This document shows positions 1,220 through 1,985 of a stretch of DNA of 25,379 nucleotides, one piece after another. The DNA comes from a virus: IMG/VR virus record IMGVR_UViG_3300047560_000794, positions 1 to 25,379 of that record. One strand, written 5' to 3'. The position numbers and the translations under genes were made by a program. The first letter of the stretch is position 1, and each line of letters starts with the position of its first letter. The notes under the pieces were generated by a model, which did not search any database, was not told where the DNA came from, and worked only from the letters and a program-made list of their open reading frames with translations.

Positions 1220-1294
1220 TGGTTGGGACAGGTGGATTTGAACCAACGACCTAACGCTTATCAAGCGTTTGCTCTACCACTGAGCTATGCCCCA
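1220..1294 (-). tRNA. tRNA-Ile (GAT)
   Basis: 75 nt with encoded CCA. Acceptor TGGGGCA pairs with TGTCCCA (one wobble), discriminator A. Anticodon stem AACGC/GCGTT with loop TTGATAA gives GAT. It is the first tRNA in transcription order and lies six bases after the terminal helix of the structured RNA candidate. The spacer 1136-1219 towards tRNA-Lys holds only short hairpins. Confidence 0.94.
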
Positions 1295-1300
1295 ATGAAA

Positions 1301-1628
1301 CTGATTAGAGAGGATGTGTGTTATGGATACGAATAGACTCCCGTATCGTTCGCTTTACTCTGTAGCCTTATTGCAGGATCATGACTCCCTTTTCAACTAC
1401 AACTCAGTATTGGCCGTGCCGGCCGACAGTGGACCCATTGACTGTGCGCTTACCCAGGAACACTGAGATTTTCCACACACCCTTTCTAATCAGTTGTCTC
1501 TACAAAGATACATGGAGTAGTTGTTTGTCCTACTACAGGAATCCCAGCCCTCAGCTCTTCGCGAAGAGCTTACATGCCACCTGCTCGCGATCCATGTATC
1601 TATGAAGAGACAACCGTTAAGTTGTCTC
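1301..1628 (-). ncRNA. Candidate structured RNA with two helix-closed domains
   Basis: No gene fits the 380 bases between the wHTH terminator and tRNA-Ile, but the sequence folds strongly. Domain A is closed by 1301-1320 with 1474-1493 (18 of 20 positions complementary). Inside it CTCAGT 1403-1408 pairs with ACTGAG 1462-1467, enclosing hairpins 1412-1424 (GGCCG-TGC-CGGCC) and 1426-1445; another hairpin is 1326-1347. Domain B is closed by 1493-1516 with 1591-1614 (22 of 24) and encloses hairpins 1517-1536 and 1553-1570. GAGACAAC (1607-1614) can instead pair with 1621-1628, giving a rival fold. T4 also carries stable RNAs of unknown function (species C and D) in its tRNA cluster. Strand is inferred from the neighbouring tRNAs; no promoter was found for it. 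Confidence 0.55.
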
Positions 1629-1672
1629 GACAAGTTCTAACGATTTCAAACAGCGTATGCGTATGCTTACAT

Positions 1673-1701
1673 AAAAAAGGCGGGATCTTTTGGATCCCGC
1701 C
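1673..1701 (-). terminator. Intrinsic terminator after the wHTH gene
   Basis: On the minus strand GGCGGGATC and GATCCCGCC form a perfect 9-bp stem (1701-1693 with 1687-1679) with a 5-nt loop, followed by six T. It closes the early gene block before the structured RNA and tRNAs. Confidence 0.92.
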
Positions 1702-1724
1702 CATTTAGTAGATTTCTCTACTTA

Positions 1725-1985
1725 TCAGACGAGACCAGCGGCCTCAACGCCCAGTGCAGCAATACCGGCTGCGATGACCTGGCGAGTCGGAGTACCGAGA
1801 CGATACTTGTTGTACGTTTCGCCCATCGAGTTGGTACGCTTATTCAGATAGATTGCATATCCAGCTTCACGAAGAGTACGAACTGCGCTATGCGGATCGC
1901 TCAGCTTGAAGCGTGACGAGATCTGCTTAGCAGTAAGTTCTTCACCGTTCTTGAAAGCCTGCAGAACCTGATTAACCTTAGACAT
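1725..1985 (-). CDS. Small winged-helix/HTH DNA-binding protein
   Basis: An 86-residue basic protein beginning MSKVNQVLQAFKNGEELTAK. Residues 1-60 read as a winged helix: a helix with LTAKQISSRF (first HTH helix), then HSAVRTLREAGYAIY (recognition helix and wing), ending in YRLGTPTRQVIAAGIAALG. This pattern is common in small proteins of cyanophage-type T4-like phages and fits the Pfam HTH_39 type. The likely role is DNA binding, perhaps transcription control, but no target is known. It has its own strong sigma70-like promoter (2041-2069), a 5' leader of about 50 nt with GGAG before the ATG, and a strong terminator, so it is expressed as a single-gene unit. Confidence 0.82.
   Translation of the reverse strand: MSKVNQVLQAFKNGEELTAKQISSRFKLSDPHSAVRTLREAGYAIYLNKRTNSMGETYNKYRLGTPTRQVIAAGIAALGVEAAGLV

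Follow-up and report, generated by a model that had tools for sequence, protein, structure and literature searches.

It was found that a T4-like phage carries, directly upstream of its tRNA genes, a conserved RNA of about 200 nt (domain A) which is a new RNA family. Its helices covary, as does the stem of a preceding hairpin (domain B). The palindrome in one loop of domain A covaries as well, the modules are swapped between phages, the spacing to the following tRNA is fixed, and a boxA-like element upstream matches rRNA leaders. With somewhat better than even confidence, I read these observations as a stable, self-associating noncoding RNA within an antiterminated tRNA-operon transcript, which presents an exchangeable hairpin. 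Its expression, antitermination, processing, dimerisation, and function are inferred.

The window, that is, the whole stretch of DNA analysed, is the 25.4-kb IMG/VR virus record IMGVR_UViG_3300047560_000794, positions 1 to 25,379. Pfam recognised T4-like genes for a gp44 clamp loader, a gp45 clamp, an SMC/Rad50-type ATPase, UvsW, and a Gp23 capsid protein, and on these genes the source is a T4-like phage. All eight tRNA genes (152-1294) lie on the minus strand. In the direction of transcription, the candidate RNA therefore comes before tRNA-Ile; it lies between the tRNA cluster and the terminator of the gene for an 86-aa protein:

1220..1294, minus strand: tRNA-Ile(GAT), with which the tRNA cluster begins, immediately downstream of domain A
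1673..1702, minus strand: intrinsic terminator of the upstream 86-aa gene, a hairpin GGCGGGATC..GATCCCGCC followed by T6
1725..1985, minus strand: gene for an 86-aa winged-HTH protein (HTH_39), upstream, a locus marker in relatives

The earlier note on this DNA had proposed a two-domain structured RNA here. Its two long helices were recovered with the coordinates and quality claimed, 18 of 20 positions being complementary in 1301-1320/1474-1493 and 22 of 24 in 1493-1516/1591-1614. When the region was shuffled 200 times, no inverted repeat of 20 positions had more than 16 complementary (the best one averaged 13.4). The minus strand folds at -119.9 kcal/mol versus -91.2 ± 5.0 kcal/mol for shuffled sequences (z -5.7, 0/100), and the plus strand has a z of -4.3. 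No reading frame is open consistently across the homologues examined, in agreement with the suggested lack of coding capacity. The reading of the region as a structured RNA is thus supported, but the domains turned out to be separable modules of one transcript and not one fixed RNA.

Relatives were first collected via the upstream 86-aa protein, and the region was then compared with them. Domain A is found at the same place in seven of the contigs fetched in this way, with 71-89% identity. The family comprises about 45 IMG/VR contigs and one MAG contig (L145, binned as an uncultured beta-proteobacterium). Since scans with different conserved motifs returned the same set, the family in IMG/VR is near-fully sampled by these motifs. 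Each matching record searched has one copy; a weak second match in G460 falls on the opposite strand at the same position. Cultured phages and E. coli yielded no member, there being no match to domain A among 50,697 GenBank phages or in E. coli genomes. Rfam gave no family at the gathering score in the window and none at E up to 10 in positions 1-2000 of the window, L006, and L010; the ROOL, GOLLD, and OLE models, searched in the same way, were among those without a match. The tRNA and tmRNA models did not match domain A of the window, L006, or L010. No account of this RNA was found in the literature, subscription papers being mostly outside the coverage.

RNAalifold applied to 35 sequences gave a long closing stem (P1), the hairpins P2 and P6, and a stem P3 from which P4 and P5 branch at a three-way junction:

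1301..1500, minus strand: domain A, a conserved RNA of about 200 nt closed by P1, with an internal three-way junction P3/P4/P5 (35-sequence alignment, covariance model)
1474..1493, minus strand: 5′ arm of P1, partner of 1320-1301 (two-sided changes in 13 of 21 P1 pairs)
1301..1320, minus strand: 3′ arm of P1, ending 6 nt before tRNA-Ile (alignment covariation, helix check)
1453..1467, minus strand: P2 hairpin with a conserved UGUUC loop, preceded by a conserved GGAAAA (2 of 5 pairs covary)
1419..1426, minus strand: apical palindrome of P4, UCGGCCGG, the proposed kissing-loop dimer site (palindromic in 43/43 copies, five hexamers)
1361..1402, minus strand: P5 hairpin with a variable tip (helix 6, 4 of 8 pairs covary)
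1326..1347, minus strand: P6 hairpin with a conserved GUYUAU in the loop (helix 8, 100% paired)

In the domain A alignment, 98.5% of the cells are paired. Two-sided changes occur in 27 of the 57 pairs, whereas column shuffles gave 12.8 such pairs and slid structures never more than 7. The covariation score is 0.255 as compared with 0.131 (shuffled) and at most 0.051 (slid). In the domain B stem, 12 of 21 pairs have two-sided changes (0/500 shuffles). The lack of such compensatory changes in homologues had been set beforehand as what would refute the structured RNA, which passed in both domains. It should be noted that the structure of domain A was derived from the alignment used to score it, that many copies are closely related, and that the null is not phylogeny-aware. 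At several positions G-U is the commonest pair (27/31 at columns 24/200; 24 at columns 167/186), which marks the minus strand as the one that forms the RNA. Many unpaired nucleotides are invariant. In L113, the inner core is almost unchanged and P1 is unrelated yet still paired.

Two other interpretations of parts of domain A were rejected. An SD-ATG-ACC-TGA mini-ORF in P5 is not conserved and is absent from the second class of P5 tips. A resemblance of short motifs (GGAAAA.. and ACAGAGUAAAGC) to conserved regions of RNase P was not supported by any Rfam RNase P match at E up to 10. Separately, an unrelated 48-kb contig has a tRNA (L103:317-429, minus strand; 38.1 bits, above the Rfam cut-off) whose anticodon loop holds an extra arm of about 45 nt with ATAAGGAGTCATGACCTGAAATAAG, near-identical to the tip of P5 in domain A; this tip is perhaps a portable motif.

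The apical loop of P4 has a palindrome of 6-8 nt at the same site in all 43 copies covering it: CCTGCAGG in 22, CTAGCTAG in 9, TCCTAGGA in 4, CCAGCTGG in 4, CTGCAG in 3, and CGGCCG in the window. There are five hexamers (CTGCAG, TAGCTA, CAGCTG, CGGCCG, and CCTAGG), and the inner four bases alternate among TGCA, AGCT, CTAG, and GGCC. Since neighbouring bases cannot pair within one strand, the covariation of the inner palindrome points to the pairing of two copies. In the L010 group, the flanking stem CUGU/ACGG has been replaced with another perfect stem, CUAACA/UGUUAG, with the palindrome still in the loop. The dimerisation initiation site of HIV-1 is likewise a hairpin whose loop, about 9 nt long, contains a palindromic hexamer; it has no relation to P4, which is one part of a structured noncoding RNA. 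Only about four independent palindrome changes are seen, and pairing within one molecule is also possible for the two outer pairs. In thermodynamic folds of the monomer, the palindrome is open only in the L010 type and is partly paired in the others, including the window. Judging from sequence comparison, dimerisation of domain A through P4 is likely, but it has not been demonstrated and there is no biochemistry. The kissing-loop homo-oligomers of OLE and GOLLD were inferred by the same criterion of palindrome switching (PMC12286853).

A further element lies between the terminator and the structured region:

1635..1655, minus strand: boxA-like element CGCTGTTTGAAATCGTTAGAA, conserved upstream of P1 in most copies; the version of the relatives occurs in rRNA leaders of some Pseudomonadota

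Nearly all copies with full upstream sequence have a boxA-like element CGCTGTTTGACATTGTTGGAA 84-208 nt before P1, and many have a sigma-70 promoter (TTGACW-17-TATACT type) ahead of it. The copy in the window differs from the family version at three positions, and no recognisable sigma-70 promoter was found between the terminator and the boxA there. Among 398 Pseudomonadota genomes, sites of the GCTSTTTGACATTGT..GAA form are rare, being present in 9, with one control match. In G076, G191, G307, and G357, they are located 233-375 nt before 16S genes or 276 nt before 23S genes, and boxA in rRNA operons lies at such distances ahead of the rRNA genes. G076 has an identical core GCTGTTTGACATTGT before both 16S and 23S. 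The remaining matches are not beside a recognised rRNA start. At the motif level, the relatives' version of the boxA matches the rRNA leaders of some Pseudomonadota, with no NusB/NusE binding data. The matching form was found only by the phylum-wide search. Burkholderiaceae-like rRNA leaders lack it and carry another version, which hints at an alphaproteobacterial host, although this is an inference. Searching for GCTGTTTGACA in genomes from the family to which the L145 MAG belongs was unproductive, as the clustered matches examined were repeats and coding sequences and not rRNA leaders; the rRNA leaders of that family have a different boxA form.

In nearly all copies, a gap of 4-7 nt separates the end of domain A from the next tRNA, irrespective of whether this is a tRNA for Lys, Ile, Pro, or Ala; the exceptions are L092, L102, and L108. 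The earlier note had argued that RNase P cleavage of tRNA-Ile, 6 nt away in the window, would release the 3′ end of domain A. The fixed gap extends this argument to the whole family, in which RNase P would define the 3′ end, though the cleavage is inferred. In L113, the 5′ side of domain A directly adjoins the end of a tRNA-like sequence (read by eye), so both ends could come from tRNA processing.

The main rival explanation is a leader of the tRNA operon that acts only in cis, with stems and a boxA for read-through, RNase III/RNase P processing, or 5′-end protection and with no free RNA acting. I regard it as rather unlikely, but it has much to account for it: the promoter and the boxA ahead of the modules, the strict placement 5′ of the tRNAs with a short gap to the first one, and the fact that rRNA leaders likewise combine boxA with processing stems. 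In addition, among the examined relatives that lack domain A, most (not L001 and L031) keep a boxA-like element together with one or more long stems, one or two being seen, before the tRNAs. However, the invariant unpaired nucleotides of domain A exceed the needs of a processing stem, the P4 palindrome is kept through changes, and L113 has domain A alone in the middle of the array, between tRNAs, without boxA or domain B. These three features favour a separate RNA.

The second module precedes domain A in the transcript:

1493..1614, minus strand: domain B, a long-stem hairpin with an exchangeable insert of about 80 nt (about 1513-1591; stem covariation, unrelated insert types)
1607..1628, minus strand: short 5′ hairpin GAGACAAC-UUAAC-GGUUGUCUC, whose 3′ arm is common to the domain B stem as an alternative pairing (read from the sequence; same in relatives)

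The domain B inserts fall into about 14 unrelated types of 47-90 nt, besides near-empty versions of 3-7 nt (L105, L133, and L090). The number of types is approximate, since the inserts were grouped at a permissive threshold of 65% global identity (51% for random sequence); the identity between types is 0.518, versus 0.513 for shuffled inserts. A single insert type can be combined with as many as three or four different P4 palindromes, and a given palindrome with many inserts, indicating that the modules recombine. Modules are swapped, duplicated, or absent between phages. In L231, L233, and L236, two long hairpins of the B type, which differ in their inserts, directly follow one another upstream of tRNA-Lys, and domain A is absent. 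In L008, an unrelated region of about 170 nt (L008:8480-8648), which may be another RNA family, replaces domain A between domain B and tRNA-Ile.

Seven copies have a tRNA-like insert (type a). The two type-a inserts tested scored 25.0 and 26.2 bits (E 0.0018 and 0.0009), just below the Rfam tRNA cut-off, and T-arm-like hairpins were read in the sequences of several further types. Together with the great diversity and swapping of the inserts, this would suit a decoy, whose inserts imitate parts of tRNAs and absorb tRNA-cleaving host defences or tRNA-handling enzymes, the diversity being the outcome of an arms race. There are no defence-system data, and I consider the decoy improbable because ARAGORN found no tRNA in most insert types, including that of the window, and because some domain Bs are near-empty. 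A still weaker candidate is a small ribozyme, either self-cleaving or similar to RNase P, acting in maturation of the tRNAs: the position beside the tRNAs and the compact junction with invariant unpaired residues would fit it, but no RNase P or ribozyme model matched three members at E up to 10. An element acting as DNA (a recombination hot spot, or a packaging or replication site) could use long inverted repeats and cassette exchange, but is scarcely credible when the dominant G-U pairs fit only the minus strand as RNA and the placement 5′ of the tRNAs on the coding strand is constant.

Some minor features of the domain B region were also seen. The strand GGTTGTTTC (GGTTGTCTC in the window) can pair with either side, forming the short 5′ hairpin or the domain B stem, and a folding switch at 1607-1628 of the window and in relatives is possible. 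In about one-third of the copies (including L005, L006, L013, L085, L088, L091, and L096), a further 5′ module CACCGGGGATTCT..GGATTCTTACCCCATCGTGGGTGTAAC upstream of domain B, with an apparently covarying inner hairpin, stands in for the short 5′ hairpin. The inserts of L107, L128, L085, L145, and L138 form a hairpin having an invariant palindromic UCUAGA loop on changing stems, and the insert of the window has a UCGCGA loop. These loops are a possible second self-pairing site.

Under the favoured reading of a self-associating noncoding RNA, the region would be the 5′ part of a tRNA-operon transcript made from the minus strand. The early boxA-like sequence would be expected to load host Nus factors, so that RNA polymerase, as it does in rRNA operons, reads through a long stretch of structured RNA that is not translated. 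The transcript would fold as stem-closed modules, domain B with its exchangeable hairpin followed by the conserved 200-nt domain A core, and the RNase P cut at the 5′ end of the following tRNA would free the 3′ end of domain A. The palindromic P4 loop could pair domain A with a second copy, giving a stable homodimer or a larger assembly that would present the variable domain B. That the displayed insert contacts a host target is a guess. More speculatively, and only as a tentative suggestion, the system may be a plug-in RNA platform: a self-associating core placed in a tRNA operon, stem-closed effector hairpins exchanged by recombination, different and partly tRNA-mimicking heads for different hosts, and a borrowed host rRNA antitermination.

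ROOL and GOLLD are phage-encoded RNAs near tRNA islands, for which cryo-EM revealed nanocages (PMC12286853). The domain A family was tested for being phage-encoded and adjoining tRNA genes and meets both. It also shares with them an unexplained function, a conserved and a variable part (GOLLD linkers sometimes hold tRNAs), and palindromic-loop covariation pointing to homo-oligomers, although biochemistry is lacking for domain A and its monomer folding is ambiguous. It differs in its size (200-320 nt versus >800 nt for many GOLLD RNAs), in having no Rfam match to either, in its variable part being a separate stem-closed module, and in the boxA. This type of modularity is not described for ROOL and GOLLD in the text consulted. 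The dimer of OLE RNA is partly supported by a similar switching of a loop tetranucleotide between palindromes (PMC12286853), but OLE is a different, larger bacterial RNA, to which the new RNA has no Rfam match. The rRNA operon leaders also have a boxA and then structured untranslated RNA with long stems; here, phage tRNAs and a new noncoding RNA take the place of rRNA, and the Nus dependence is inferred.

The earlier comparison with RNAs C and D of T4 holds for the setting, as rnaC and rnaD are small RNAs of a T4-like phage within the tRNA cluster. However, they are 139 and 119 nt long and are located downstream of the tRNAs in T4. Homology was rejected: the covariance model run on the T4 rnaC/rnaD locus (L147, filters off) gave nothing above noise, the best score being 7.1 bits outside rnaC/rnaD. 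The present family adds a well-supported member, unlisted in Rfam, to the few phage tRNA-linked structured RNAs of unknown role. As it is far smaller than ROOL or GOLLD, its dimerisation, structure, and function are quickly testable. The swapping of hairpin modules on a conserved stem and the rRNA-type boxA before phage tRNAs each point to a mechanism open to laboratory experiments.

A few observations concern the tRNA cluster itself. The gap at 1136-1219 was considered as an additional structured RNA and rejected (fold z just -1.0). ARAGORN called tRNA-SeC with a TCA anticodon in L010, L022, L087, L101, and L231, in the slot of the window tRNA-Glu(TTC) (979-1056); these calls may represent an ambiguous anticodon arm or opal suppressors. 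It also called an amber-reading tRNA (CTA) at L092:1412-1485 on the minus strand. Positions 100-147 of the window (minus strand) resemble the 5′ half of an initiator tRNA-Met without the 3′ half, and relatives such as L043 have an intact tRNA-Met at this place.
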